A stretch of 64,000 nucleotides of DNA from an uncultured Saprospiraceae bacterium. GTDB lineage: Bacteria > Bacteroidota > Bacteroidia > Chitinophagales > Saprospiraceae. The notes under the pieces were generated by a model. The model saw only the letters and a list, made by a program, of their open reading frames with translations, was not told where the DNA came from and made no database searches. Made by a program: the position numbers and the translations under genes. Below are positions 5,385 to 22,284 of the stretch, piece after piece (within the stretch, counting starts at the first letter, position 1; each line of letters starts with the position of its first letter). The stretch covers positions 248,001 to 312,000 of the forward strand of contig CALLPI010000008.1 of assembly GCA_938015595.1 (NCBI GenBank). Reading direction: 5' to 3'.

Positions 5385-8300
5385 ATGAAAAATTGCGCAC
5401 AAAAAATTGTGCTGGTATTTGTTTTGGCCGGCATTTCCTTCCTGTTGCCTGCTCAGCCTGACAGGGTGTTCTTAGAAAAAAATGACAATGGAATAAAGCT
5501 GATGGTCAATGGCCGGGACTTCATGGTCAACGGCATTAACTGGGATTACTTTCCAATAGGAACCAACTACTCGTACAGCTTATGGAACGCGCCCGATGCT
5601 TTCATCAAGAGAGCCCTGGACGATGAGATGTCGTTGCTCAGAAGCATGGGGGTCAATACTATTCGGGTTTACACCGGCATACAGCCCAAGTGGATCAAGT
5701 ACATCTACGAAGAGTACGGCATTTACACCATGCTCAACCACTCTTTTGGTCGCTATGGCCTTACCCTCAACGGAGCTTGGTTTCAAAACACGGAGTATGC
5801 CGATGCGCGGGTGCGCGAGTTGCTGCTTCAGGAAGTAAGCCAACTGGCGCAGGAATATAAAAACACACCTGGCCTGCTGCTGTACCTGCTGGGCAATGAA
5901 AACAACTACGGTCTGTTTTGGGATGGCGCCGAAACGGAGGATATACCTTTGGAGAACAGGCGAGCCACTCAACGCGCACGATCTATGTACAAGCTATTCA
6001 ATGAGGCAGCTTTGGCTATGAAAGCCATTGACCCTTTACATCCGGTGGCGATATGCAACGGCGACCTGTTGTTTCTGGACATCATCGCGCAGGAATGTAA
6101 GGACGTGGATGTCCTGGGTATCAATGTGTACCGGGGGGCTTCCTTCACTGACCTCTACACTCGCGTAGAAAAAGAGTACGGCAAGCCCGTATTGCTCACT
6201 GAGTTTGGCTCTGATGCTTTCAATGCCATTACTATGGAGGAAGATCAGCAAGCCCAGGCTTGGTACCTGAAGAGCAACTGGCAGGAGATTTACGAAAACG
6301 CTGCTGGCTTGGGCAAGTCGGGCAACTCGTTGGGTGGGTTTACTTTTCAGTTTAGCGATGGCTGGTGGAAATATGGCCAAACCAAAAACCTGGACGTGCA
6401 CGATACCAACGCCTCTTGGTCGAACGGTGGCTACCTGTTTGACTACCAGCCTGGCCAAAACAATATGAACGAAGAGTGGTTTGGCATCTGTGCTAAAGGC
6501 CCGACCAACGCGCAGGGCTTCTATCAACTCTACCCCAGGGCGGCTTACTACGTGCTCAAGGAGGTGCACCGGCTCAATCCTTATGCTGCCGGAATGAACC
6601 CGAGTATGATTAAAAAACACTTCGACAATATCCTGATCATGGACGCTGTGCTCAGCGCCCGGGCCGACAAGGCCGCACTGGAGGCGGAAAAGAACAAAAA
6701 AATCAGATTGAGCCGTCTCACAGCGGAGTTGAGTACTTTCAATACCGGCGGCAGCCTGATCTCCACGCCCAGAGCCCCTGTGCCCAACAGCCAGGTATTT
6801 CCCAACCAACTGGGTTTTGACCACATGCAGTCCTTCTTTGTGGGCGTAGAAGCCAATCCGGCCTCTAACATGCGTGCCAATGTGGAGGTGAACGTCCTGG
6901 GCAATGTAGCCCAGAACCCGATTGACCAAATATTTTACGAAAATCGCGGCCGCCCCCTTGCTGTGCGCACGCCTAATGGCCACGTCAACCTGGAGGCCAA
7001 CAACCGCGTCCAGGTGTATCGCGCCGAGTACCACTGGAATCACAAGTGGTTTGATCTACATGGGTTTTACCGCACGGGGCACTACCACTGGGGCTACGAA
7101 GGCGACTTCTTCGGCTTGTACCAGGAAGCCAACTACGGCCCCGTAATTGACATTTACAACGGCATTGCACCCTTTGGGTTTGAAATGGAAGGCAAGAGGC
7201 AATTGCATGGCCTCAAGGCGGCATTTGGCCCGCAGTTGTGGTGGGGCGCCAACCCAGCCTTATTGCTTAAGTACAGCAAAACCCTGGCGGGTGTAAACCT
7301 AACGGGCGTTTTTCACGAAGACTTGGAGCAACTAGGCCTCACCGAAAGTTCCTTTGCTATACCCCAGCCCCAAACCCGCCGCATGACCTTGCACGCTGGC
7401 AAGAAACTGGGTAAGCTGGGTATTGATCTCGGCGGCATCTGGGGAGGACAGCCGCTACAAGGCAGGCCGTTCCAGTTGGTCAGGGGCAAGGAAGGCAACT
7501 ACACAGTGTACGAAGACGTCATTCGCCCAGAAGACAACTGGGGCGGCAAAGTGAAACTCACCTACGAGGGCGGCAAGTTTAAGTGGTATGTGCAATCGGC
7601 GGTGATGGGCCTGGTAGCCAATGGCGGCCCCAACTACACCCAGACCTTCACTGGCTGGAAACTCAAAGATAGCGGCAGCGGCAACCAGTACAACTTCCTG
7701 TCGGGGTTTACCTACAACATTGGCAACCTGCAAATTGCGCCCAACTTCCTGTGGCAAAAACCCATTGAAGGCCCCATTCCTGCCGATGTACCCGCGCCAG
7801 GCCGCCCGCGCAACATCCTGGACGACCCCTTCGTGGTGCGGGGCAACCGCGAGCAGGTAGCCGGCGAGATTCTCTTCACCTACGACCCCACTCCCTCCAG
7901 TTGGATGTACCAGTGGGATAGCGACCGCTCGGAAGACGCCAAATTTGCCCTGAGTACCGGGTTCGTCTATCGCCACCTGCCCACTACCCAAGATGCGGCC
8001 ATTGGTATCTTGCCAGACGGGCGCACGGTATTTGCCTTTCCGGGCGCCGCCCCTGCCCAGGATTTGTGGGAAGTGCACGCGCGGGTGGTGTCTAAGTGGA
8101 GCAGTAAGTTTGGCCTCATTGCAAATCTTTACGCCGGCGACGCCCAGGCCAACGGCAGCGATACCAGAACCATACGTCGCTATGGTATAGATGTGCGCGT
8201 GATTTCTGGCTCGGTCAAGTTACATTCCTTCCTTAAGCTCAACGACTGGGGGCCTTACGACTATCACCGTGACTTCAACCTGACCTTCCCGCTCCAACTC

Positions 8301-8531
8301 ATGGCAGACGCCTCCATCTCGGTGGGTAAACCCGACTGGTTCCACCTGCCGGATACCCGCATAGGCGTGCGAGGGCTATGGCGTACGCTCAACCAGTACT
8401 CGCCGCGCTATGCGCCCACCCAAACCCTAAACGGCGGCAACAACCTAGGCCCCGACCCCAACGCCATCGGCTTTGACAATGGCAACGAATGGGAAATCAG
8501 AACCTATATAATCATCAATGTTGGCAAATAA
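5385..8531 (+). CDS. clan GH-A glycoside hydrolase fused to predicted outer-membrane beta-barrel
   Basis: 1048 residues from the ATG at 5385, which starts a signal peptide ending near PAQ. Residues about 30-430 form a (beta/alpha)8 hydrolase like the catalytic part of GH2/GH5 enzymes: the acid/base is Glu172 in LLGNENN and the likely nucleophile Glu273 in LLTEFGS. A charged linker (about 440-460) leads to roughly 580 residues with alternating aromatic/polar strands, many Gly, Trp and Tyr turns, and a C-terminus IRTYIIINVGK, as in outer-membrane barrels. A cell-surface or periplasm-facing glucan hydrolase tethered to its own pore is the reading. The first gene of the beta-glucan operon, 14 bases from the next. 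The exact GH family was not assigned. Confidence 0.7.
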   Translation: MKNCAQKIVLVFVLAGISFLLPAQPDRVFLEKNDNGIKLMVNGRDFMVNGINWDYFPIGTNYSYSLWNAPDAFIKRALDDEMSLLRSMGVNTIRVYTGIQPKWIKYIYEEYGIYTMLNHSFGRYGLTLNGAWFQNTEYADARVRELLLQEVSQLAQEYKNTPGLLLYLLGNENNYGLFWDGAETEDIPLENRRATQRARSMYKLFNEAALAMKAIDPLHPVAICNGDLLFLDIIAQECKDVDVLGINVYRGASFTDLYTRVEKEYGKPVLLTEFGSDAFNAITMEEDQQAQAWYLKSNWQEIYENAAGLGKSGNSLGGFTFQFSDGWWKYGQTKNLDVHDTNASWSNGGYLFDYQPGQNNMNEEWFGICAKGPTNAQGFYQLYPRAAYYVLKEVHRLNPYAAGMNPSMIKKHFDNILIMDAVLSARADKAALEAEKNKKIRLSRLTAELSTFNTGGSLISTPRAPVPNSQVFPNQLGFDHMQSFFVGVEANPASNMRANVEVNVLGNVAQNPIDQIFYENRGRPLAVRTPNGHVNLEANNRVQVYRAEYHWNHKWFDLHGFYRTGHYHWGYEGDFFGLYQEANYGPVIDIYNGIAPFGFEMEGKRQLHGLKAAFGPQLWWGANPALLLKYSKTLAGVNLTGVFHEDLEQLGLTESSFAIPQPQTRRMTLHAGKKLGKLGIDLGGIWGGQPLQGRPFQLVRGKEGNYTVYEDVIRPEDNWGGKVKLTYEGGKFKWYVQSAVMGLVANGGPNYTQTFTGWKLKDSGSGNQYNFLSGFTYNIGNLQIAPNFLWQKPIEGPIPADVPAPGRPRNILDDPFVVRGNREQVAGEILFTYDPTPSSWMYQWDSDRSEDAKFALSTGFVYRHLPTTQDAAIGILPDGRTVFAFPGAAPAQDLWEVHARVVSKWSSKFGLIANLYAGDAQANGSDTRTIRRYGIDVRVISGSVKLHSFLKLNDWGPYDYHRDFNLTFPLQLMADASISVGKPDWFHLPDTRIGVRGLWRTLNQYSPRYAPTQTLNGGNNLGPDPNAIGFDNGNEWEIRTYIIINVGK

Positions 8532-8545
8532 AAAAGATACGCAAC

Positions 8546-10414
8546 ATGAATACCAATGTGTGCTATACGTCGAGGTTATACCTAGCCCTGGCGTGGTGTT
8601 GGCTCTGGCTACTGTTCTCTGCCTGCGAGCGCGAGGTAGAAGGGCTGGAATCTCCGGCTTATCCCTCCAATCCGGAAGTATTTATTGACGGCTTCAGTCC
8701 GGGGCTAAATTATGCGGCTTTTGGCGGCTCTGTACTTACGGCTTTTGACGTAGATCGAGAGGTGACCTACAACGGCTCTGCGGCGTCTATGCGTTTTGAA
8801 GTGCCCGACGTCAATGACCCCAGGGGCGCGTATGCCGGCGGAACGTATTATACTACCGTAGGCAGGGATTTGTCAGGATACAATGCGCTGACCTTCTGGG
8901 CCAGGGCTTCCCAGCCTGCCAATATTGACGTAGTGGGCTTTGGCAATGACCTGGGTGAGTCTCGTCATCAGGTCACTATTTCCGGGTTGCCAGTCAATAC
9001 TAACTGGAAGAAGTACATCATCCCTATACCTGATCCCTCCAAGCTCAAGGCAGAGCGCGGGATGTTTTTTTATTCGGAAGGCCCAGAAAATGAAAAAGGC
9101 TACACCTTTTGGATAGATGAAGTGAAATTTGAAAAACTCGGCACGCTGGCACACCCTCGGTATCTCATCCTCAACGGGCAGGACCAGACAGAGACCTCTT
9201 TCATCGGCATCACCAAAACCATAGGTGGCCTGAAATCTGTGTTCAATCTGCCTGTCGGGGTGGATCAGGAAGTTACGGTAGCACCTGCATATTTCGATTT
9301 TTCTTCATCTGACCCCTCTATAGCCACGGTGGACGAGAGTGGTCGGGTAACGGTCCGTGGCGGTCCGGGCACAGCCCGTATCACGGCTCGGGTAGGCGGC
9401 GCGGTAGCTACAGGTTCGCTGACTATTCAGTCGGCTGGCAATTTCCAGGCAGCACCGCGCCCAACGCGCCCTGTGGCTAACGTCATTTCTGTGTTTAGCG
9501 ATGTGTATCCCAACGTGCCGGTGGACTACTACAACGGCTACTGGGCGCCGTACCAGACCACTCAGTCGGCAGACTTTACCGTGGACGGAGACAACGTACT
9601 GCACTACACCAACTTCAACTTTGTAGGGATTCAGTTTACCTCTCCTACGATCAATGCTTCTTCCATGACCCATCTGCACGTGGATGTCTTCATCCCGAAT
9701 ACCTTGCCGGCCAACGCTCGGTTCAAGATTGAAATGGTACACTTCGGCACGCCCAACATTACGGGTGCATTCACCACCATCATCACAGCGGTGCAGTCTC
9801 GTCAATGGGTGAGCCTGGACATTCCGCTGGTCAGCTTTGCCGGGCTGAGCAATCGGTCGAATCTGGCACAAATCATCTTCGTGGACGATAGCAACAATAT
9901 TGACAGTTTCTACGCCGACAATATTTATCTGTATAATGCCGGCACGCCGCCCTCGGCGCCCACTACGCCTGCGCCGACACCCACGCATCCTGCGGCCAAT
10001 GTCATCTCGGTGTTCAGCGACGCATACACCAACATTGCCGGCACCAACCTGAACCCCAACTGGGGGCAGGCCACTGTGGTCACCCAGGTGAGCATTCAGG
10101 GCAACAACACTCTGCGCTACGGCGGCCTCAACTACCAGGGCATACAGTTGGGCAGCAATCAAAATGTATCGGGCATGCAGTTTTTGCACCTGGACTTCTG
10201 GAGTGCCACTTCTACTTCGCTCAAGGTATTTCTCATCAGCCCAGGGCCGTTGGAAACGCCGTTCATCCTGACTGTGCCCACCAACGGCTGGTCGAGTGTA
10301 AACATTCCCCTGTCGGCTTTTGTGCCGCCGGTCAATTTGTCCAATGTGTTTCAGCTCAAGTTTGAAGGCAACGGGGATATTTTTCTCGACAATATCTACT
10401 TCTTTCGCAACTAA
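8546..10414 (+). CDS. multi-modular glycan-binding lipoprotein
   Basis: 622 residues from the ATG at 8546. The signal peptide ends in LFSAC with the lipidated Cys27, followed by acidic residues (EREVEG), compatible with surface export in Bacteroidota. Modules: a jelly-roll carbohydrate-binding-like domain (about 35-190, ending WIDEVKF), a Big2 Ig-like domain (about 225-290, SSSDPSIATVDESG), and two copies of a module starting VISVFSD (about 305-460 and 470-622) joined by a Pro/Thr linker. No catalytic motif was found. The last two modules are related to the duplicated module of the secreted protein at 22285. It probably takes the place of a SusE/F-type surface glycan-binding protein for beta-glucan. 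Confidence 0.75.
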   Translation: MNTNVCYTSRLYLALAWCWLWLLFSACEREVEGLESPAYPSNPEVFIDGFSPGLNYAAFGGSVLTAFDVDREVTYNGSAASMRFEVPDVNDPRGAYAGGTYYTTVGRDLSGYNALTFWARASQPANIDVVGFGNDLGESRHQVTISGLPVNTNWKKYIIPIPDPSKLKAERGMFFYSEGPENEKGYTFWIDEVKFEKLGTLAHPRYLILNGQDQTETSFIGITKTIGGLKSVFNLPVGVDQEVTVAPAYFDFSSSDPSIATVDESGRVTVRGGPGTARITARVGGAVATGSLTIQSAGNFQAAPRPTRPVANVISVFSDVYPNVPVDYYNGYWAPYQTTQSADFTVDGDNVLHYTNFNFVGIQFTSPTINASSMTHLHVDVFIPNTLPANARFKIEMVHFGTPNITGAFTTIITAVQSRQWVSLDIPLVSFAGLSNRSNLAQIIFVDDSNNIDSFYADNIYLYNAGTPPSAPTTPAPTPTHPAANVISVFSDAYTNIAGTNLNPNWGQATVVTQVSIQGNNTLRYGGLNYQGIQLGSNQNVSGMQFLHLDFWSATSTSLKVFLISPGPLETPFILTVPTNGWSSVNIPLSAFVPPVNLSNVFQLKFEGNGDIFLDNIYFFRN

Positions 10415-10431
10415 CTCAAATTGATATAGTG

Positions 10432-11238
10432 ATGAATGCGAAAATGTGCGCGCTAGCCTTGCTTCTCACGTTGATAGGCTGCAAAGCGGACGACTTCCAA
10501 AAACTGGAGCCGCGCAACTGGCAACTGACCTGGAGCGATGAATTTAACGGCGCGGCTGGCGCTCTGCCCGATCCTGACAAGTGGACTTTTGACCTCGGTA
10601 CGGGCAATGGCGGCTGGGGCAACCAGGAGTTGCAGTCTTATACCAACAGCCCCGACAATGTGTCTATGGATGGCCAGGGCAACCTGGTGATTACCGCCAG
10701 GCGGGCAGGCAATGCCTTCACCTCGGCCAGAATCAAAACGCAAGGGCTTTTTGAGCAAAAGTATGGCCGCTTTGAAGCGCGCCTAAAAACACCCTACGGC
10801 CCAGGATTGTGGCCTGCTTTCTGGTTGCTTGGCGCCAACATCTCGTCTGTGGGATGGCCCCAGTGCGGCGAAATTGACATCATGGAACTACGGGGGCAGG
10901 AGCCCCACATTGTACATGGCTCGCTGCACGGGCCGGGCTACTCTGCCGGCAATGCCATCACCAAAAAATATGCCTTGCTCAATGGCCGCTTCGACGCCGA
11001 CTACCACGTGTATGCTGTGGAGTGGGACGCCAATAAGATTGATTTCTTCGTTGACGACTTCCTCTACCAGCGCGTGGAGCGCAGCAAGGTGCCTGGCGAG
11101 TGGGTGTACGACGCTCCGTTTTTTCTGATTTTCAACGTAGCAGTGGGCGGCACATTCGTGGGGTTTCCTACAGCACAGACGCCCTTCCCGCAGCGCATGA
11201 TCATTGACTACGTGCGGGTATATCAGGAGGCGAAGTAA
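10432..11238 (+). CDS. GH16 lipoprotein, laminarinase-like endo-beta-1,3-glucanase
   Basis: 268 residues from the ATG at 10432 (a GTG lies directly before it). Lipobox LIGC gives lipidated Cys17, then KADD, an acidic/lysine tag resembling the lipoprotein surface-export signal known from Capnocytophaga. The GH16 signature GEIDIMELRG contains the nucleophile Glu147, Asp149 and acid/base Glu152; the bulge methionine (EIDIME) is typical of laminarinases and lichenases. FGRFEARLKTP-like and WPAFWLLG segments also fit. It would cut internal beta-1,3 bonds of laminarin-type glucans at the cell surface. It lies 17 bases after the binding lipoprotein in one operon. Confidence 0.9.
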   Translation: MNAKMCALALLLTLIGCKADDFQKLEPRNWQLTWSDEFNGAAGALPDPDKWTFDLGTGNGGWGNQELQSYTNSPDNVSMDGQGNLVITARRAGNAFTSARIKTQGLFEQKYGRFEARLKTPYGPGLWPAFWLLGANISSVGWPQCGEIDIMELRGQEPHIVHGSLHGPGYSAGNAITKKYALLNGRFDADYHVYAVEWDANKIDFFVDDFLYQRVERSKVPGEWVYDAPFFLIFNVAVGGTFVGFPTAQTPFPQRMIIDYVRVYQEAK

Positions 11239-11518: not shown

Positions 11519-14500
11519 ATGCCGTCAACTGCCCAAACAGACAAACCCGCCCACAAAACCGTGGATCTGCGCCTGGTAACGCACGACAACGAGCGCTGGC
11601 TCCGAATATCCCACTGCGATGCCATGCGCCCGTTCTTCATGAGTGTGGTGAGCGATTCTAATCACTGGATGTTTATTGCCAGCAATGGAGGGCTTACTGC
11701 AGGGCGCAAAAACCCAGAGTATGCGCTGTTTCCCTACTATACCGATGATAAAGTAACCGAATCGGCAGAAATCACGGGTAGCAAGTCCATCTTCCAGGTG
11801 TGGGCCGGCCAGGAAACCTGGGTGTGGGAGCCATTTTCGGAGCGTTTTACCGGTCGCTATGCCATCAGCCGGCATTTGTACAAAAGTGTCTGGGGCAACA
11901 AAATCATGTTTGAGGAAATCAACCACGACCTTGGCCTCACTTTTCGCTACCGCTGGTGCAACAGCCACCGATTTGGATTTGTGCGGCAGGCGGAACTGCG
12001 CAATGACTCAGACAGATACTACACCATCACTTTACTAGATGGCCTACAAAACCTCATGCCCTATGGTGTACCCAGCGACCTGCAAGCCAAAGCTAGCAAC
12101 CTGGTGGACGCTTACAAGCGCAGCGAACTGGAGCCAGCCTCTGGCGTAGGGATCTTTGCCCTCAGCGCTATTATTGTGGACAAAGCCGAACCCGCCGAGG
12201 CGCTCAAAGCCAATGTAGTTTGGTCATTGGGACTGGAGCGCCCCAGGTATCTGTTGTCTGCTTTGCAATTAGATAATTTCAGAAGAGGGCAGGCCATCCG
12301 ACAGGAACACGACGTCAAGGGCGAAAAAGGCGCGTATTTCGTATGCGCAGACATTGCGCTGCCCGCTCGTGCTGGCAAGAAGTGGATGATAGTGGCCAAT
12401 GTCAACCAGAGCCATACCCAGGTGGTGGATCTTCGCCGGGTCATCCTCTCTGAGGCTGACCTGGAAAAACAACTTCACGACGACATTGCCGCTGGCACGC
12501 GCCGACTGATTCATCTGGTAGCTAGTGCCGACGGGCTGCAGTGCACCGCCGACGTGCTCAACGATACCCGCCACTACAGCAACGTACTTTTCAATATCAT
12601 GCGGGGCGGCATTTTTGACAACCACTACCAAATAGATAAAAAGGACTTTGTGACCTATCTTGCCAAAGCCAACAAGGAAGTGGCCGCAAGAAACCAGTCT
12701 TTCATTGAGGTGTTGGAAGAGACCTTTGGCCAAGCAACACTCAAAGACCTGGCGCTGCGCAGTGGCGATGTCGACTTCATACGGCTGGCCATTGAGTATT
12801 TGCCTCTGAGGTTCAGTCGCCGGCATGGAGATCCCAGCCGTCCGTGGAACTACTTTTCTATCAATACCCACAGCGAGGCCGATGGCTCCAAAATTCTGGA
12901 TTACGAAGGCAACTGGCGCGACTTGTTTCAAAACTGGGAAGCCCTGGCCCTGGCCTACCCAGAGTTTATCGAGGGCATGATTTTTAAGTTTCTCAACGCT
13001 TCCACTTTTGATGGCTACAATCCCTATCGAGTGACTAAAGACGGCTTTGACTGGGAAACTATTGAACCCGACAACCCCTGGTCGTACATCGGCTACTGGG
13101 GCGACCACCAGATCATCTACTTGCAGAAGTTTTTCGAGATCATCGAAAAATACCATCCCGGTGCCTTGCAGGCTTTTTGGGACAAAGACTGGTTTGTGTA
13201 CGCCGCAGTACCCTACGTCATCAAGCCCTATGCACAAATCCTGGACAACCCGCAAGATACCATTGAGTTTGACCACCGCTGGGACGCCGCCATCCGCAAG
13301 CGACGTGAGCAACTAGGTGCCGACGGCGCACTGCTAGCTAAGCCAGGCGGGGGTGTTTATCACGTCAATTTCACCGAGAAACTGCTAGCCGCCCTGTTGG
13401 CCAAGTTGTCCAACTTTGTACCCGAAGCCGGCATCTGGATGAATACCCAAAGGCCGGAGTGGAACGACGCCAACAACGCTTTGGTGGGCAATGGTGCCTC
13501 CATGGTCACGCTGTATTACTTGCGTCGTTTCCTGGCGTTTTTCCATCAGTTATTGAGCAGCAGCCCACTGGGGCAGGTCAATATTTCGGCACAACTGGCC
13601 GAATTGTACCACCACATCTTGGAAGCGCTACAGCACTACAGCCCCTTGTTGAAGGCGCACTTCTCGCCGCAAGACCGAAAAGCCGTCATGGATCGGCTCG
13701 GTAGCGCTGCTTCCAACTACCGGCATCAGGTGTATCAGTATGGGTTTTCGGGAGAGAAAAGCGCTATTGGCCTGGATGAACTCCAGGACTTTATCCGACT
13801 GGTGCTGGACTACCTGGAGCACTCTATCCGCGCCAACCAAAGACCAGACAAGCTGTATCACGCCTACAACCTCATTACTGTAAAAAATGACAGCGCGGAG
13901 GTGGCGCGCCTCACAGAAATGCTGGAAGGGCAGGTGGCCGTGCTGAGCGCTGGGTATCTGAGTGCAGAGCAAGCACTAGAGGTATTGGATGCCTTGAAGC
14001 GCAGTGCGCTGTTCCGCGAAGACCAATACAGCTACATCTTGTATCCCAACAAAAACCTACCCGGATTCTTACAAAAAAATATCCTTTCTGGCAAGGATGT
14101 ACAGTCGTCGGCACTACTCAGGCAACTGCTGGCCGACGGCAACCCAGCCATTGTGGAGCAGGATATGGAGGGCGATTTCCACTTCAATGGCCATTTCAAA
14201 AACGCCAAAGACCTGGAGCAGGCTCTCAACGCCCTGGGGGGCAAGTACAGACATTTAGTGGAGCAAGACCGGCCACTGGTGCTGGATCTTTTTGAGAAGG
14301 TGTTCCAGCACAAGGCATTTACCGGGAGGTCGGGCACCTTCTTTTCTTATGAAGGGCTTGGCTCTATCTACTGGCACATGGTGTCCAAACTGCTACTGGC
14401 TGTGCAGGAGTGTTGTATGAGTGCTATTGAAAATCGTGCTACTCCGGAGGTAATCAGCAGGCTGCTGGAGCACTACTACGAGATAGAAGCCGGTATAGGC

Positions 14501-14998
14501 GTGCACAAGCCGCCGGAGTTGTATGGCGCGTTTCCTACTGACCCCTATTCGCACACCCCCCTGCACCGCGGCGCGCAACAGCCGGGCATGACGGGCCAAG
14601 TGAAGGAAGACATCCTCTCGCGATTCGGAGAGTTGGGGGTATTTGTCAAAAATGGGCAGTTGTATTTCGATCCCTGCTTGCTGCGCAGCGCGGAGTTTCT
14701 TCAGGCACCACAAGTCTTCGAATACTGCACTGTAGCTGGTGATACCAGGCAGTTGGTACTGCGCGAAGGGCAGTTGGCTTTCACGTGCTGCATGGTTCCT
14801 GTGGTGTACTCGTGGGCCGATTCAGACACCATCACTGTGCACTATACTGACGGGAAAGCAGAGCAAATGATCGGGAATGTACTAAACCGCCGAATTAGCA
14901 GCCTCGTGTTCAGGCGAACAGGAAAGATAGAACGAGTAGAAGTGTTCTTAAACCAAAATAGATGTGCATCGCATGCTTGTATCAGAGGAGTGACATGA
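11519..14998 (+). CDS. GH149-type beta-1,3-oligoglucan phosphorylase
   Basis: 1159 residues without signal peptide, hence cytoplasmic. The (alpha/alpha)6-barrel core with RPEWNDANN (Asp650 as likely catalytic acid), GYWGDHQIIYLQKF and SRPWNYFSINTHSEADG resembles GH94-type inverting phosphorylases, but the length far exceeds GH94 enzymes (about 800-900) and matches GH149, the family of beta-1,3-glucan phosphorylases from Euglena and bacteria. It would convert beta-1,3-oligoglucans plus phosphate to alpha-glucose-1-phosphate. The GH16/GH17 neighbours agree with that substrate. Its stop overlaps the next gene's start (ATGA), so the two are translationally coupled. Confidence 0.82.
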   Translation: MPSTAQTDKPAHKTVDLRLVTHDNERWLRISHCDAMRPFFMSVVSDSNHWMFIASNGGLTAGRKNPEYALFPYYTDDKVTESAEITGSKSIFQVWAGQETWVWEPFSERFTGRYAISRHLYKSVWGNKIMFEEINHDLGLTFRYRWCNSHRFGFVRQAELRNDSDRYYTITLLDGLQNLMPYGVPSDLQAKASNLVDAYKRSELEPASGVGIFALSAIIVDKAEPAEALKANVVWSLGLERPRYLLSALQLDNFRRGQAIRQEHDVKGEKGAYFVCADIALPARAGKKWMIVANVNQSHTQVVDLRRVILSEADLEKQLHDDIAAGTRRLIHLVASADGLQCTADVLNDTRHYSNVLFNIMRGGIFDNHYQIDKKDFVTYLAKANKEVAARNQSFIEVLEETFGQATLKDLALRSGDVDFIRLAIEYLPLRFSRRHGDPSRPWNYFSINTHSEADGSKILDYEGNWRDLFQNWEALALAYPEFIEGMIFKFLNASTFDGYNPYRVTKDGFDWETIEPDNPWSYIGYWGDHQIIYLQKFFEIIEKYHPGALQAFWDKDWFVYAAVPYVIKPYAQILDNPQDTIEFDHRWDAAIRKRREQLGADGALLAKPGGGVYHVNFTEKLLAALLAKLSNFVPEAGIWMNTQRPEWNDANNALVGNGASMVTLYYLRRFLAFFHQLLSSSPLGQVNISAQLAELYHHILEALQHYSPLLKAHFSPQDRKAVMDRLGSAASNYRHQVYQYGFSGEKSAIGLDELQDFIRLVLDYLEHSIRANQRPDKLYHAYNLITVKNDSAEVARLTEMLEGQVAVLSAGYLSAEQALEVLDALKRSALFREDQYSYILYPNKNLPGFLQKNILSGKDVQSSALLRQLLADGNPAIVEQDMEGDFHFNGHFKNAKDLEQALNALGGKYRHLVEQDRPLVLDLFEKVFQHKAFTGRSGTFFSYEGLGSIYWHMVSKLLLAVQECCMSAIENRATPEVISRLLEHYYEIEAGIGVHKPPELYGAFPTDPYSHTPLHRGAQQPGMTGQVKEDILSRFGELGVFVKNGQLYFDPCLLRSAEFLQAPQVFEYCTVAGDTRQLVLREGQLAFTCCMVPVVYSWADSDTITVHYTDGKAEQMIGNVLNRRISSLVFRRTGKIERVEVFLNQNRCASHACIRGVT

Positions 14999-16350
14999 CG
15001 CGCTTCGCTGCGCTTCTTGCAAGAGGCCTGGAGGCGAGCAAGGAGCTTTCGCACTGGCGGCGTCAAGCTGTGTTCCTATGCCTGTGGGTATTGGCTATGG
15101 CGACATTCTCGTCTTCTTGCAGCCCTACCAAGGTGCCTGCTGATAAAACTGCCGCCGACATCCTGGGCAACCCTGCGTACCAGGCCATTTCCTTTGGCAG
15201 TTACCGGGGGTTGTCGTGCGATATTCAGCCCACCATACCCCAGCTCAAGGAAGACCTGAAGATACTGTCGGCCATGGGTATAAAGTTGCTCAGGACATAC
15301 AATGTGTACTACGGCGAAGTGGCCAAACTGCCGGTAGTCATCCGTCAGCTAAAAGCCGCAGACCCTTCATTTGAAATGTACCTCATGCTGGGCGCGTGGA
15401 TAGACTGCAAAAATGCCTGGACGGATCAGCCCCCCAACCACGACGAAGAAAGCGAAAAAAATGCCAGCGAGATAGACCGAGCGGTGGCATTAGCTCAAAA
15501 GTATCCCAACATAGTGAAGATCATTGCCGTAGGGAATGAGGCCATGGTAAAGTGGGCCGAAAGCTACTATGTACAGCCCAGAGTAGTACTCAAGTGGGTC
15601 AACCACTTGCAAAACCTCAAAAAACAAGGTAAACTACCTCAAACCCTGTGGATCACTAGTTCCGACAACTTTGCCTCTTGGGGCGGTGGCGGCAGCGAAT
15701 ACCACGTGGAAGATTTGAATGCCTTGATCAAAGCCGTGGACTTCATCTCCATGCACACTTACCCCATGCACAACACACACTACTACAACCCCAACTTCTG
15801 GGGCGTGCAAGAAGACGAGCTGAGCTTATCAGATGTGGAAAAAATCAACGCCGCAATGTTGCGCGCTAGAGACTACGCCGTAAGCCAGTACGAAAGCGTG
15901 GTGCACTACATGAAAAGCCTCGGTGTGGACAAACCCGTGCACATTGGCGAAACCGGCTGGGCCACCCAGGCCAACGAACGCTACGGCAACAAAGGCTCCA
16001 GAGCATGCGACGAGTACAAATCGGCACTCTACTATCAGCACATGCGCAACTGGACTAATACCGCCGGCCTAACTTGTTTTTACTTTGAAGCCTTTGACGA
16101 ACAATGGAAGGATGCGGCTAACCCCGGCGGTTCGGAAAACCACTTCGGGTTGTTCAATCTACAAGCACAGGCCAAGTATGCCATCTGGAATCTGGTGGAC
16201 GCCGGCGTGTTTGAGGGCCTCATGCGCGACGGGCAGCCTATCACCAAGACTTTTAATGGAGGAGATATGGCCGCTATGATGCGCAACAATAAAAGCACCC
16301 CCAACAGCAGCAGAAACCAAAAGCCAACATTGAAAACAGCAGCGATATGA
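14995..16350 (+). CDS. GH17 lipoprotein, beta-1,3-glucanase or glucanosyltransferase
   Basis: 451 residues from the ATG at 14995, which has a strong Shine-Dalgarno (AGAGGAG) and overlaps the GH149 stop. A long N-region leads to lipobox SSSC with Cys42. The GH17 barrel shows Glu182 in AVGNEAM (acid/base) and Glu319 in GETGWAT (nucleophile), and FYFEAFDEQWK near the end, all family hallmarks. It should act on beta-1,3-glucan at the periplasmic or outer face. The C-terminal tail after about residue 415 is low-complexity (Asn/Ser/Lys). It overlaps the following GH30 gene by four bases. Confidence 0.88.
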   Translation: MTRFAALLARGLEASKELSHWRRQAVFLCLWVLAMATFSSSCSPTKVPADKTAADILGNPAYQAISFGSYRGLSCDIQPTIPQLKEDLKILSAMGIKLLRTYNVYYGEVAKLPVVIRQLKAADPSFEMYLMLGAWIDCKNAWTDQPPNHDEESEKNASEIDRAVALAQKYPNIVKIIAVGNEAMVKWAESYYVQPRVVLKWVNHLQNLKKQGKLPQTLWITSSDNFASWGGGGSEYHVEDLNALIKAVDFISMHTYPMHNTHYYNPNFWGVQEDELSLSDVEKINAAMLRARDYAVSQYESVVHYMKSLGVDKPVHIGETGWATQANERYGNKGSRACDEYKSALYYQHMRNWTNTAGLTCFYFEAFDEQWKDAANPGGSENHFGLFNLQAQAKYAIWNLVDAGVFEGLMRDGQPITKTFNGGDMAAMMRNNKSTPNSSRNQKPTLKTAAI

Positions 16351-17876
16351 CTACAGGTGCAAGATACATAGTAGAAACGAGGAGGCCTCAAAGTAGCTAT
16401 CTCCTCTTCTGGGTAGTATTAGCTTTTCTAATCAGCAGTTGTATGCAATCCAAATCATTGGACGTAGAAGTGTATGAAACCTCCGCAAGTGGCCATAAAC
16501 TAACGCGGCTGTCTGAGTTTCCTACCGCACACACCACGGCAGAGGTCAACCTCTTGCCTGAAGAAGCCTTTCAGACCATCACCGGCTTTGGCGGTGCTTT
16601 TACCGAGGCATCTGCTCATCTGCTCAACTGCCTGAGCCAAGAAAAACGGGCGCGCATCCTAGAAGCGTACTTCGGAGATACCGGCGCCAGATACTCCCTG
16701 ACTCGCACCCATATCAACTCCTGTGATTTCTCCTTAGGCAACTACTCCTATGCTCCTGTACCCGGCGATGTGACGCTGAAAAACTTCTCCATTGCGGAAG
16801 ACTTAAACGACCTCATTCCTATGATCAAGGAGGCCATGGCTGTTTCCAAAGATGGCTTCAGAATCATCGCCTCACCTTGGACGGCGCCACCCTGGATGAA
16901 AGACAACAAAGACTGGCGCGGTGGCAAACTCCTGCCCAAGTACTACCCTGTCTGGGCGCTGTTCTTTTCTAAATATCTAGATGCCTACAAAGCCCAGGGC
17001 ATTGATATCTGGGGCTTTACGGTAGAAAATGAACCCTTGGGCAACGATAGCAACTGGGAAAGCATGCACTACACCCCGGAGGAAATGAACGAGTTTGTAA
17101 AAAAACACCTGGGGCCAAGACTGAAAGCCGATGGGCACGAAGTGAAAATCCTGGGCTTTGACCAAAACCGCGACGAAGAACTTAACAAATGGACAGACGC
17201 CATGTATGGCGATGAAGCGGCCGCAGCATTTTACGACGGAACTGCCGTGCACTGGTATGCCAGCACCTACGACTACTTTCCCGACGCCCTGCTGTACGCG
17301 CACCGCAAAGCACCTGGCAAGCACTTGATCAATACCGAAGCTTGTGTGGACGCCCAGGTGCCTCAATGGCAAAACGACGCCTGGTACTGGGCACAGGAAG
17401 CTACCGACTGGGGCTGGACCTGGGCCCCCGACGACCAAAAGCATCTGCACCCCAAGTACGTGCCCGTGTTTCGCTATGCGCGCGACATCATCGGCTGCCT
17501 CAATCACTGGGTGGACGGCTGGGTGGACTGGAATATGGTGCTTGATCGGCAAGGCGGCCCCAACTGGGCAAAAAACTGGTGCACAGCTCCCGTCATCGTG
17601 GATCCCGAGCAGGATGAAGTATATTTCACGCCTTTGTATTACGCTCTGGCCCACTTCAGCCGCTTTATTCGGCCGGGCGCGTTGCGCATAGGGTTCAAGC
17701 ACAACGATAGCGACCTGATGGTCACGGCGGTGCGCAACCCCGACGGCAGCACGGCGGTCGTTTTGTTCAATCCTACGGTACAAGTCAAAGGTATCAGGCT
17801 GACCATGCAGGGCAAAACAGCCGGATTTTCCATTGCCGCCAAGGCCATACAAACGGTTGTCATTCTTGATAAGTGA
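16347..17876 (+). CDS. GH30 lipoprotein, probable endo-beta-1,6-glucanase
   Basis: 509 residues; the signal peptide ends LISSC (lipidated Cys32). The GH30 core begins at QTITGFGGAFTEAS; the acid/base is Glu229 in TVENEP, and Glu331 in INTEAC is the likely nucleophile. SPWTAPPWMKDN and the C-terminal side beta-sandwich (SRFIRPGALRIG onwards) fit GH30 subfamilies 1/3. Given the GH16 and GH17 neighbours, removal of beta-1,6 branches from laminarin or yeast-type glucan is the likeliest role; beta-glucosidase or glucosylceramidase activity is the alternative. Its start overlaps the preceding GH17 stop as ATGA. Confidence 0.86.
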   Translation: MTTGARYIVETRRPQSSYLLFWVVLAFLISSCMQSKSLDVEVYETSASGHKLTRLSEFPTAHTTAEVNLLPEEAFQTITGFGGAFTEASAHLLNCLSQEKRARILEAYFGDTGARYSLTRTHINSCDFSLGNYSYAPVPGDVTLKNFSIAEDLNDLIPMIKEAMAVSKDGFRIIASPWTAPPWMKDNKDWRGGKLLPKYYPVWALFFSKYLDAYKAQGIDIWGFTVENEPLGNDSNWESMHYTPEEMNEFVKKHLGPRLKADGHEVKILGFDQNRDEELNKWTDAMYGDEAAAAFYDGTAVHWYASTYDYFPDALLYAHRKAPGKHLINTEACVDAQVPQWQNDAWYWAQEATDWGWTWAPDDQKHLHPKYVPVFRYARDIIGCLNHWVDGWVDWNMVLDRQGGPNWAKNWCTAPVIVDPEQDEVYFTPLYYALAHFSRFIRPGALRIGFKHNDSDLMVTAVRNPDGSTAVVLFNPTVQVKGIRLTMQGKTAGFSIAAKAIQTVVILDK

Positions 17877-17900: not shown

Positions 17901-20306
17901 ATGTCGGCTAGTACAACAATAAGTGCACACAAAGTTCCTTTCGGCCAGAAAGTGGCCTTTGGCCTGGGCATGTTGGCCAATCAAATGTTTCCGGCGGCGC
18001 TGGGCATATTCATGGTAGTGCTCGTGCAGGATTTAGGTTTTCCGGGCTGGATGTGGAGCGCCATTTACTTCTTTCCTCGAATATTTGACTCCCTTACCGA
18101 TCCCATTATGGGATTCATCTCTGATAATACCCGCTCGGTGTGGGGCCGACGGCGGCACTACGTATTTTCCGGTGCTATACTTATGGGTATAGCTTTTGTG
18201 ACCATGTGGCAGTTGTACCGCGAAAACGGCGTGACGTACAATTTCATTTACTTCATCCTGTGGTCGTTCATTTTCTACCTGGGGCTTACTATTTTCAGCG
18301 TGCCTTACGTGGCTATGGGCTACGAGATGAGCGACAACTTCCACGAGCGCACCAGCATCATGGCCACCGCCCAGTGGATTGGGCAATGGGCCTGGGTTAT
18401 TGCGCCCTGGTTCTGGGTGATCATGTATGACCCTAAGTGGTTTCCAAATGCCGATACGGCTACTCGGACCCTGGCTGTTTGGGTAGGGGTGGGGTGTACC
18501 TTGTTGGCCATAGTACCAGCTATTTTTATCAAGAGTAAGTCCACTAAAGACGATACGAGCCTGGCACCCCTTACGCTAAAGGGTATTGGCGGTAGCCTGG
18601 TGCAAATTTTTGAAGGGTTCAAACAGGCCTTTCAGTCCGTTCCCTTCAGGAAGCTTTGTATTGCCACTTTCCTCATTTTCAATGCATTCAATACCGTAGC
18701 GGCATTCTCCTTTTTCATTATCGTGTATCATTTGTTCAATGGCGACACGAAGGCTGCTGGTGTTTGGCCTACTTTATTCGGTAGCCTGGGGGCGCTGGGT
18801 ACTACTTTTTTGGTCATTCCTTCAGTGGCCTGGCTGTCGAAGCAACTGGGCAAGAAACGGGCCTTTTTGCTCTCGCAGGGCATTTCCATTTTGGGCTACA
18901 TTCTGTTGTGGTTTTTGTTCGTCCCTGGCAAGCCATATCTATTCATTTTTGCACTGCCATTTTTCTCCTTTGGCATAGGGAGCCTGTTCACGCTGATGAT
19001 GTCCATGACTGCTGACGTGTGCGACCTTGACGAACTGAATACCGGCAAACGGCGGGAGGGCATCTTTGGCGCTATTTACTGGTGGATGGTCAAATTCGGC
19101 TTTGCTATAGCTGGCGGTCTGAGTGGCCTGATCCTTACAATTGTAGGCCTGAACCCCGATGCTGCTGTGCAGCCGGAGGGTGCTGTGACAGGCCTGCGCT
19201 TGTTTTTTTCCGGCGTGCCTATGCTCGGTACCATGCTGGCCATGTGGGTTATGCGCAACTACGATCTGGATGAGCAGCGCGCACGCGAAATCCAGGCAGA
19301 ACTGGCCTCCCGAAAAGTGCAAAAACCTTCAAGAGGCTACATTGTCTCGGCACTCGGTTTAGAGGGCTTGTCCAAAGCAGAAATCCTGGCTCGCTTCCCG
19401 CAGTTTTTTGCCGTGCCACTGGACTTTGACACCATGGGCGAAGAGGAACTTCGCCATAGCTTCCAGGAGCAACTCAACAAAGGCATGCACGGGGTTTGCT
19501 TTAGCCCCTATTTGCCAGGGCAAAACCCCGGAGACCCCATTACGGAAGAACAGATACGCAAAAGGCTGGAGTTGGTCAGACCTCACACCCGGTGGATACG
19601 CACGTTTTCTTGCACTAACGGGCATGAACTGATTCCTGAAATAGCCCGCCAAATGGGACTGAACACCATGATTGGCGCCTGGATCAGTCATGACCTAGAG
19701 CGAAACGAACGAGAACTGCAAGTGCTTATGCAATTAATTCATCAAGGCTGGGTGGACATCGCCGCAGTGGGCAATGAAGTGTTGTTCCGGGGCGAATTAT
19801 CTGAAGAAGCCATCTGCCAATACATTGGCCGGCTCAAGCAAGCGGCCGGCTCCACACCAGTGGCCTACGTGGATACGTACTACGAATGGCTCAACCGGCC
19901 CAGGTTAGTAGAAGTTTGCGATATCGTATCCATCAACTGCTACCCGTTCTGGGAGGGTGCCAGTATTGAGACGGCCGGCTTTTACCTCCAGGAAATGTAT
20001 CACCGAGCTGTGGAGGCCGCTGGCGGCAAGCAAGTTATCATTGCCGAAACGGGCTGGCCCAGTATGGGCAGCCCTGTGGGGCAGGCTGTGCCTTCGGACG
20101 AGAACTACCTCCGCTACTTCCTCAGAACACAAATGTGGGCGGAGCGCTTTCACGTGCCTTATTTTCATTTTTCCTCCTTCGATGAATCCTGGAAAATTCA
20201 TGCCGAAGGCTGGGCCGGCACTTCCTGGGGGATTTGGGATGTACACCACCAACTCAAGTTCGCGCCGAGCGAGGGGGGGAGCGTCCACTCGTCGAAAACG
20301 TGCTGA
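17901..20306 (+). CDS. GPH-family sugar symporter fused to a GH17 beta-1,3-glucanase domain
   Basis: 801 residues in one open frame. Residues 1-455 are a MelB-like (GPH) sugar:cation symporter with about 12 membrane helices, the cytoplasmic GRRRHY motif, YVAMGYEMSDNFHERTS and ADVCDLDELNTGKRREG. Residues about 480-790 form a GH17 domain with Glu626 (AVGNEVLF) and Glu716 (AETGWPS) in the catalytic positions. Because GPH carriers have both ends in the cytoplasm, the hydrolase should face inward, ready to process imported oligoglucans. The domain is a close relative of the separate GH17 protein that follows. No stop or frameshift separates the halves. The last 12 residues are low in order. Confidence 0.88.
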   Translation: MSASTTISAHKVPFGQKVAFGLGMLANQMFPAALGIFMVVLVQDLGFPGWMWSAIYFFPRIFDSLTDPIMGFISDNTRSVWGRRRHYVFSGAILMGIAFVTMWQLYRENGVTYNFIYFILWSFIFYLGLTIFSVPYVAMGYEMSDNFHERTSIMATAQWIGQWAWVIAPWFWVIMYDPKWFPNADTATRTLAVWVGVGCTLLAIVPAIFIKSKSTKDDTSLAPLTLKGIGGSLVQIFEGFKQAFQSVPFRKLCIATFLIFNAFNTVAAFSFFIIVYHLFNGDTKAAGVWPTLFGSLGALGTTFLVIPSVAWLSKQLGKKRAFLLSQGISILGYILLWFLFVPGKPYLFIFALPFFSFGIGSLFTLMMSMTADVCDLDELNTGKRREGIFGAIYWWMVKFGFAIAGGLSGLILTIVGLNPDAAVQPEGAVTGLRLFFSGVPMLGTMLAMWVMRNYDLDEQRAREIQAELASRKVQKPSRGYIVSALGLEGLSKAEILARFPQFFAVPLDFDTMGEEELRHSFQEQLNKGMHGVCFSPYLPGQNPGDPITEEQIRKRLELVRPHTRWIRTFSCTNGHELIPEIARQMGLNTMIGAWISHDLERNERELQVLMQLIHQGWVDIAAVGNEVLFRGELSEEAICQYIGRLKQAAGSTPVAYVDTYYEWLNRPRLVEVCDIVSINCYPFWEGASIETAGFYLQEMYHRAVEAAGGKQVIIAETGWPSMGSPVGQAVPSDENYLRYFLRTQMWAERFHVPYFHFSSFDESWKIHAEGWAGTSWGIWDVHHQLKFAPSEGGSVHSSKTC

Positions 20307-20375: not shown

Positions 20376-21296
20376 ATGTCTTACAGAGTAGATAAATACT
20401 TGAGCTTCAAGGCATCGGCGCAGGTTACGGGCGAGGGCTTCTTCGATGGCAAATCGAATGAAGATATCAGAAATCTGTTTTTGGAAGTATTGTACAGCGG
20501 GGTGCACGGCTTCTGCTTTAGCTTATATGAAGACGGCCAAAAACCTGGCGACATTATTTCGGAGGAGCAGGTGCGCCGGCGAATGCAGATACTCAAACCC
20601 TACATACAGTGGGTGCGCTCGTTTTCCTGCACTGAAGGCAATGAATACATACCCAAAGTGGCCAAGTCCATGGGCATACACACCCTAGTTGGCGCCTGGC
20701 TGGGCAAAGAGGAAGACAAAAACCGCTTGGAAATTGACGGCTTGATCCAGTTGGCTAAAGATGGAGTTGTGGACATTGCTGCCGTGGGTAATGAAGTGCT
20801 CTACCGCAAAGACCTCACCGACGACCAACTACTCGGCTACATAGAGGAAGTAAAAAGTGCCCTGCCCGGCATCCCCGTAGGCTATGTGGACGCTTACTGT
20901 GAGTTTGTGCAAAAGCCGCACATCACTGCTGCCTGCGATGTCATCCTGTGCAATTGCTATCCTTTCTGGGAAGGCACGGATTTTGGCCACTCTCTTGAGC
21001 ACATGCGGCAGATGTACCGCCAGGCCAAAACTGCCAGCGAAGGCAAGAAGGTCATCATCACCGAAACCGGCTGGCCCAGCCAGGGCGAACGCCTGGGCAA
21101 TGCCGTACCCTCTATGCTCAACGCTATGAAATACTTTATCAATACCCAGCTTTGGGCTAGCGACGAAAACGTAGAAGTTTTTTACTTCTCCTCCTTTGAC
21201 GAATCCTGGAAGGTGGGCGCCGAAGGGGAGGTGGGCGCTTACTGGGGGATCTGGGACAAATACGAAAAACTCAAGTATGCCAATGGACACCTTTGA
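20376..21296 (+). CDS. cytoplasmic GH17 protein (paralogue of the transporter-fused domain)
   Basis: 306 residues without signal peptide or lipobox. It aligns by eye along its full length with the GH17 half of the preceding transporter fusion (FSCTEGNEYIP against FSCTNGHELIP, CNCYPFWEG against INCYPFWEG). Catalytic residues are Glu140 in AVGNEVLY and Glu230 in TETGWPS. It should hydrolyse or transglycosylate beta-1,3-oligoglucans in the cytoplasm before phosphorolysis by the GH149 enzyme. A 69-base gap precedes it with no clear promoter, and its 3' end overlaps the next gene. Confidence 0.87.
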   Translation: MSYRVDKYLSFKASAQVTGEGFFDGKSNEDIRNLFLEVLYSGVHGFCFSLYEDGQKPGDIISEEQVRRRMQILKPYIQWVRSFSCTEGNEYIPKVAKSMGIHTLVGAWLGKEEDKNRLEIDGLIQLAKDGVVDIAAVGNEVLYRKDLTDDQLLGYIEEVKSALPGIPVGYVDAYCEFVQKPHITAACDVILCNCYPFWEGTDFGHSLEHMRQMYRQAKTASEGKKVIITETGWPSQGERLGNAVPSMLNAMKYFINTQLWASDENVEVFYFSSFDESWKVGAEGEVGAYWGIWDKYEKLKYANGHL

Positions 21297-22236
21297 CGTA
21301 CTCGGCATACCTCCTGGCAGGGCAATATGCTACTCCGGCTTCCGGCATGGCCAACAACCGGGGGGGCAGTATCCCAGCTACGAGGAAGTTAAGGAAGACC
21401 TACTACTGCTGCATGGCCACTGGAAATACCTGCGCCTGTACGATTGCGACCTGCATGCTGAAACCGTACTAAGCGTCATCCAGCAGGAAAAACTCGATTT
21501 TAAGGTCTTGCTGGGCGCATTTATTGAAGCCGAGATGAACAACTTTAACTGCCCCTGGGGCGGCGGCGTATATGCCGAGGAGCAGTTGGATGCCAATGCC
21601 CAGAGCAATGAACGGAAAATCCACCGGCTTGTAGAGTGGGGCCAGCGCTATGCTAATATTGTTGTCGCGCTCTCGGTGGGCAACGAAGCCTGCGTGGACT
21701 GGACTGACCACTGCGTGCCTGAAAGTCGCGTGCTAGAGTTTGTTCATCAAGTAAAGGCCAAGGCCTCACAACCCGTGACTTTCTGCGAAAACTATGTGCC
21801 TTGGCTTTACAAGTTAGCATCGCTGGCTGATGCTCTCGACTTCATCTCCATTCATACCTATCCTGTGTGGGAATACCGGCACATTGAGGAATCACTCGAC
21901 TACTCCAAAGCAAACTACTACGCCGTAGCCGAAAAATACCCACACAAGCCAATTGTCATTACTGAGGCCGGCTGGGCTACCTGCTCCAACGGGAGGGGTA
22001 TCCCCCCAGAGAATGTCGGCGAGGAGTACCAGAAGCTCTACTTTGATAAACTGACGGAATGGGTAGGGCAAGAGCGCATTCTTACCTTCTTCTTCGAGGC
22101 ATTTGACGAACCGTGGAAAGGCTCACCCGACCCCCTCGAGCCCGAAAAGCACTGGGGGCTTTTTAACATAGACAGAACACCAAAACTGGCAGTACAACAC
22201 CTGGTGTCAGAAGGTCTCGCACTGAACAGCCGATGA
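21283..22236 (+). CDS. third cytoplasmic GH17-type glucanase
   Basis: 317 residues from ATG 21283 (an alternative ATG is at 21277); the start overlaps the preceding gene by about 14 bases, so coupled translation is likely. There is no signal peptide. GH17 features: Glu135 in SVGNEACVDW, Glu228 in ITEAGWAT and FFFEAFDEPWKGS near the end. It is more like the lipoprotein GH17 at 14995 (FEAFDEQWK, HWGLFN ending) than like its immediate neighbours, so this locus contains two GH17 lineages inside the cell. Substrate should be beta-1,3-linked oligoglucan; exo- or transferase action is possible. Confidence 0.83.
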   Translation: MDTFDVLGIPPGRAICYSGFRHGQQPGGQYPSYEEVKEDLLLLHGHWKYLRLYDCDLHAETVLSVIQQEKLDFKVLLGAFIEAEMNNFNCPWGGGVYAEEQLDANAQSNERKIHRLVEWGQRYANIVVALSVGNEACVDWTDHCVPESRVLEFVHQVKAKASQPVTFCENYVPWLYKLASLADALDFISIHTYPVWEYRHIEESLDYSKANYYAVAEKYPHKPIVITEAGWATCSNGRGIPPENVGEEYQKLYFDKLTEWVGQERILTFFFEAFDEPWKGSPDPLEPEKHWGLFNIDRTPKLAVQHLVSEGLALNSR

Positions 22237-22284
22237 TGTCAACTTACTGGAAAACGTTTTTTTAACTTATTAAATACTTTGCTT

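Follow-up and report, generated by a model that had tools for sequence, protein, structure and literature searches.

Few sugars in the sea are as abundant as laminarin, and SusC/SusD (SusCD) is the importer usually credited with bringing it into Bacteroidota. A known arrangement is the SusC/SusD 'utilisome', which brings together SusC, SusD, a glycoside hydrolase (GH) and an SGBP (PMC11658791). A laminarin cluster published from marine Flavobacteriia matches the gene set described here (PMC6246565, PMC13188888), a fusion of an MFS transporter to GH17 has already been described in Formosa (PMC6246565) and one laminarin cluster without susCD is noted in PMC10108472. Here, we describe a locus from an uncultured Saprospiraceae bacterium in which an enzyme fused to a predicted outer-membrane barrel may be the laminarin entry pore where a SusC/SusD importer is absent.

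The fusion gene lies near the start of the window, the whole 64,000-nucleotide stretch that was analysed (GenBank assembly GCA_938015595.1, contig CALLPI010000008.1, positions 248,001 to 312,000), and its features, together with those of the genes that follow it, are listed in Table 1. The protein runs from a signal peptide through a clan GH-A domain and a short helix to a predicted C-terminal outer-membrane barrel. As more than 100 genomes encode this arrangement as one ORF, the fusion is not an artefact. A full-length AlphaFold model (pTM 0.50) does not fix how hydrolase and barrel are placed with respect to one another.

Table 1: Features of the fusion gene and of the genes downstream of it (positions within the window).
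Feature	Position	Strand	Basis
GH-A glycosidase/outer-membrane barrel fusion, single ORF of 1048 aa, start ATG 5385	5385..8531	+	>100 full-length relatives
Signal peptide I, residues 1-23 (...SFLLPA-Q)	5385..5453	+	Read off sequence; relatives' ...AQ ends at same place
Clan GH-A (beta/alpha)8 domain, residues 26-416 (about 25-416)	5460..6632	+	PF02836; structure matches
N171-E172, predicted acid/base	5895..5900	+	Invariant; aligned with NE of 9oro, 6pal
E273, predicted nucleophile	6201..6203	+	Invariant; aligned with TE of 9oro, 6pal
Helix/linker, residues 419-436	6639..6692	+	Stand-alone GH relatives stop near here
Predicted 24-strand outer-membrane barrel, residues 440-1046	6702..8522	+	Model; no Pfam family
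Loop 3, residues 563-596	7071..7172	+	93% conserved
Loop 7, residues 741-767	7605..7685	+	91% conserved
Loop 11, residues 955-967	8247..8285	+	95% conserved
Presumed surface glycan binder: lipoprotein with lipobox LFSAC, acidic residues following the Cys, and repeated carbohydrate-binding-like modules	8546..10414	+	Sequence
GH16 lipoprotein (LIGCKADD)	10429..11238	+	PF00722, E 4e-26
GH149 beta-1,3-glucan phosphorylase	11519..14998	+	NF058639, 1756 bits (cut-off 1150)
GH17 lipoprotein	14962..16350	+	PF00332
GH30 lipoprotein (beta-1,6-glucanase type)	16347..17876	+	PF02055, E 3e-79
MFS (GPH) transporter fused to GH17	17901..20306	+	PF13347 + PF00332
Two more GH17-like proteins	20376..22236	+	
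Type IX-secreted carbohydrate-binding-like protein	22279..24129	+	TIGR04183
Y_Y_Y/propeller-type regulator	24346..27048	+	Homolog directly upstream of fusion in many relatives

An earlier sequence-only reading had placed a clan A hydrolase at residues of about 30-430, with Glu172 and Glu273 picked out, and our analyses bear this out. Pfam matched only the hydrolase part of the protein (PF02836, E 1.7e-7, residues 38-288), the AlphaFold model resembled GH158, GH2 and GH157 enzymes (Z 25-27.5), and N171-E172 and E273 were invariant in 48/48 sequences, aligning with the catalytic NE and TE of two GH158 endo-laminarinases of known structure (9oro, 6pal). Mutating the corresponding residues of BuGH158 (N136, E137 and E220) abolishes its activity (PMC7157763). 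Given the (beta/alpha)8 fold, in which strand 4 is followed by NE and strand 7 by the second glutamate, assignment to clan GH-A is firm; the family within the clan is left wide by tied structural scores (GH158 27.5, GH2 26.9, GH157 26.6), GH158 being the best sequence match (E 5e-5). The C-terminal Ig-like domain of BuGH158 is absent from the fusion, in which residues 400-437 are helical and lead into the barrel. Neighbouring genes point to beta-1,3-glucan as the substrate. NCBIfam searches with the whole protein yielded weak matches, to beta-galactosidases; with Pfam recognising the hydrolase alone, public annotation is therefore likely to label the protein GH2 and to overlook the barrel.

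Residues 440-1046, modelled alone from 69 sequences, were predicted to form a barrel and not a soluble beta-sandwich (pLDDT 79.7, pTM 0.77), in line with what had been read from the strand pattern of the C-terminal part. The model has about 24 strands, an approximate count given that some segments are of low confidence. Connections alternate between long odd ones (mean 23 aa) and short even ones (mean 5 aa), and the alternation of hydrophobicity along the strands lies 5.6 SD above shuffles. An even number of strands, alternation, long outer loops, short inner turns and a signal peptide are thus all present, as in outer-membrane barrels, and the matches listed by Foldseek are outer-membrane barrels. 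Among these, only the 24-strand ushers PapC/FimD matched over the whole length (Z up to 13.7), with partial matches to Occ channels, AlgE and chitoporin. As a prediction from modelling, the barrel is nearly certain. Both of its termini would be periplasmic, because the strand number is even and the loop pattern puts them on the side of the short turns, so the GH domain probably sits on the periplasmic side; the linker helix is of low confidence in the barrel model.

The barrel family is undescribed in curated libraries: no Pfam or NCBIfam model covers it and the 69 barrels gave no meaningful Pfam match (at best five weak matches to DUF6882). No plug or TonB-dependent receptor domain (PF07715/PF00593) was found in the fusion or in the 69 barrels, nor did these match the usher Pfam family, and the locus holds no chaperone or pilin genes. 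A search of the open-access literature turned up no account of this barrel. Conservation is as high in the outer loops as in the strands (0.77 vs 0.75) and reaches 0.91-1.00 in loops 3, 4, 7 and 11. Such high conservation is unusual in outer-membrane loops and suggests binding or contact with a partner. The C-terminus (...EIRTYIIINVGK) is also conserved (...INIGK/N), so that the earlier claim of an outer-membrane-type end holds as far as conservation goes and falls short in that the terminal aromatic residue of the BAM signal is missing. That residue is common but not universal in outer-membrane barrels; about half of the TonB-dependent receptor ORFs of this genome have it.

All genes from the binder lipoprotein to the regulator lie downstream of the fusion on the same strand. 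A stretch of about 170 residues (VISLFSEAYTNVPVDTWRTPW...) occurs twice, almost unchanged, in the protein at 22279-24129 and is related to modules of the lipoprotein at 8546-10414. Upstream, a GH65-type enzyme (302-2626) is not obviously part of the laminarin cluster. As the sequence-only reading had stated, the locus has no SusC/SusD, and none was found elsewhere in the 64-kb window, leaving a hydrolase and an outer-membrane barrel joined in one protein within a SusCD-free beta-glucan locus. The nearest SusD on the contig (G000:C8:368308) lies about 112 kb downstream and one TonB-dependent receptor is 39 kb away (47777-50485). A separate SusCD cluster of the same genome (L247, G000:C18:25000-44900) carries two PF10091 (GH144-type) enzymes and a GH3, which suggests a beta-1,2-glucan locus.

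The fusion is old and widespread in Bacteroidota, where it sits in laminarin clusters (GH149, GH17, GH30, MFS). A lipoprotein candidate for glycan binding, on which the earlier reading had been silent, always accompanies the barrel: it adjoins the fusion in 80/80 loci of relatives with 63-77% identity, and 37/40 of its own relatives have a lipobox-like motif. GH16 is nearby in 75 and GH149 in 62 of these 80 loci, some of which are on short contigs. Fifteen apparent loci without the binder turned out to be overlapping ORF calls, the binder gene being present there. Among 395 sampled Bacteroidota genomes, 33-34 encode the fusion, in one copy each, and none was found to encode a free barrel without the GH; GH149 occurs in 33/34 fusion genomes vs 37/361 others. 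The GH was present in 87 of the 397 genomes of one family (that of G342), nearly always fused to the barrel. No relative of the fusion was found on viral contigs. A weak match in the phylum sample, a 1417-aa ORF of G217, was dismissed as chance, as the barrel profile did not recover it. In Lewinellaceae bacterium SD302 the fusion gene (L067:9983-13141) has an in-frame stop after residue 326, possibly reflecting a pseudogene or a sequencing error; it resembles a barrel-free form but is a fused gene.

SusC/SusD was present within the examined stretch in only 3/80 loci of relatives (77/80 without) and in 0/20 loci of the phylum sample. One family departs from this: SusC-SusD is encoded in 14/39 loci (25/39 without), just upstream of the fusion and between it and the regulator, so the fusion can also work beside SusCD. 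Across 13 loci with both, the barrel shows a mean identity of 73% vs 58% for SusC and is therefore not decaying in such company.

Eight stand-alone relatives of the GH stop close to where the barrel would begin. In a quick tree of 85 GH domains, with SH-aLRT support only, they imply about six changes of state. Apart from one basal form, all of them are nested among fused forms, and the GH appears from these sequences to have lost its barrel about four times. SusC-SusD is adjacent at three barrel-free loci (L166, L190, L214); L161 and L157 retain a reduced LacI-GH-GH149-MFS set, with neither binder nor GH16 in the examined stretch, and SusCD was not seen in the stretch examined at L153, L161 or L204. 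The presence of SusCD beside three barrel-free lineages is suggestive of substitution, in counts too small for significance. The binder directly follows 0/6 barrel-free GHs, whereas it adjoins the fusion in 80/80 loci; like SusC and SusD, barrel and binder thus form a linked pair. In one short locus (L149:2022-3629, G157), the stretch after the stop of a free GH matches the start of the barrel and lies directly before GH149. A fragment was considered and rejected there, since the tree puts this GH among barrel-free forms and a barrel-like remnant follows its stop; apparently the barrel, the binder and GH16 were lost here recently. The earlier proposal that the fusion replaces SusCD is therefore plausible for the many loci without SusC/SusD and for the three lineages in which SusC/SusD adjoins a barrel-free GH, but not universal, given the fourteen loci with both and the barrel-free loci with neither.

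The fold, the catalytic residues, the conservation, the linkage of barrel and binder and the absence of SusCD from most loci were computed directly; a pore function for the barrel is the most economical reading of them. We consider it rather likely that the fusion is a plug-less enzyme-pore and that barrel and binder do the job of SusC and SusD. BAM would insert the C-terminal part as a barrel of about 24 strands, wide and without a plug; the clan GH-A beta-1,3-glucanase-type domain would hang off strand 1 and most likely face the periplasm. The lipoprotein encoded by the next gene would capture laminarin-type beta-1,3/1,6-glucan at the surface, where the GH16 lipoprotein would cut it; fragments would then pass through the barrel and be trimmed on arrival by the attached GH. 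GH17 and GH30 would carry on the degradation in the periplasm, the MFS-GH17 protein would move oligosaccharides inward and GH149 would phosphorolyse them. Conductance of glucan, the substrate, the sidedness and independence of TonB are all presumed in this scheme. More tentatively, at somewhat short of even chances, the fusion may define a new class of importer, in which a barrel of about 24 strands, lacking a plug and independent of TonB, is covalently joined to a hydrolase, has its own glycan-binding lipoprotein and operates alongside SusCD or instead of it across Bacteroidota.

Other functions for the barrel can be envisaged. Unlikely, though the most serious of them, is that it serves chiefly to anchor the GH in the membrane or, like an autotransporter, to show it on the surface, while glucan enters via a SusCD or porin encoded elsewhere. 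An N-terminal enzyme with a C-terminal barrel does resemble type V passengers, strand 1 is preceded by a helix of about 18 residues, the linker might conceivably thread through the pore as in an autotransporter, and three or four barrel-free GH forms have a lipobox, which is another anchor. However, other free forms have plain signal peptides and surface enzymes of Bacteroidota are usually anchored as lipoproteins. Type V autotransporters have a 12-strand C-terminal translocator, not about 24 strands over 607 residues; 91-100% conservation in four loops exceeds an anchor's needs, and the barrel shares its fate with the binder lipoprotein, both being retained or both lost.

It is less probable still that the fusion plays an accessory part, as a porin open to small sugars in general, and that a distant SusCD does the main work of laminarin uptake. 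SusCD beside the fusion in the family mentioned above and five SusD genes elsewhere in this genome would suit such a role; against it, the only GH16 and GH149 of the genome sit in this SusCD-free locus, and the genome's nearest relative of laminarin-locus SusC belongs to a beta-1,2-glucan-type cluster (PF10091, GH3). We regard as very improbable an AlgE- or usher-like channel exporting a self-made beta-glucan trimmed by the GH: the structural matches do include AlgE and ushers, but gene-by-gene domain annotation of the locus revealed a phosphorylase, endo- and exo-glucanases and a sugar MFS and no glucan synthase, and the literature links clusters with this gene set to the use of laminarin (PMC6246565, PMC13188888).

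If the enzyme-pore reading is true, a conserved barrel family fused to an enzyme and linked to a binder would provide a second outer-membrane route for laminarin and could account for laminarin clusters without susCD; loci that naturally have a single enzyme-pore but lack SusCD make this clearly testable. Genes reported as 'GH2 beta-glycosidase' or 'GH0' in published laminarin PULs share the GH16/GH149/GH17/GH30/MFS neighbourhood, from which they are probably the fusion gene or its barrel-free form; the text of those papers mentions no barrel (PMC13188888, PMC10108472).

The hydrolase shares its clan, its NE/TE catalytic residues and a beta-1,3-glucan locus with the GH158 endo-laminarinases BuGH158 (6pal) and GH158(Pro) (9oro), but has only about 20% identity to them, scores equally well against GH2 and GH157, and carries a barrel in place of their C-terminal Ig-like domain. 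PapC/FimD align over the whole barrel model as 24-strand barrels, yet there is no detectable sequence similarity, no plug insertion and no chaperone genes. The Formosa MFS-GH17 protein, whose counterpart at 17901-20306 is a second transporter-enzyme fusion in this cluster, likewise unites transport and hydrolysis in a single protein, but it is a helical transporter of the inner membrane. Closest in organisation is the SusC/SusD utilisome, which likewise encodes barrel, lipoprotein binder and GH together and occupies the same place in laminarin loci; the fusion differs in having no plug, no match to the TonB-dependent receptor family and no SusD, about 24 strands instead of 22, and a covalently joined GH. 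We see in it a variant of the module by which glycans are taken up across the outer membrane, with a barrel from a family that curated libraries do not describe.
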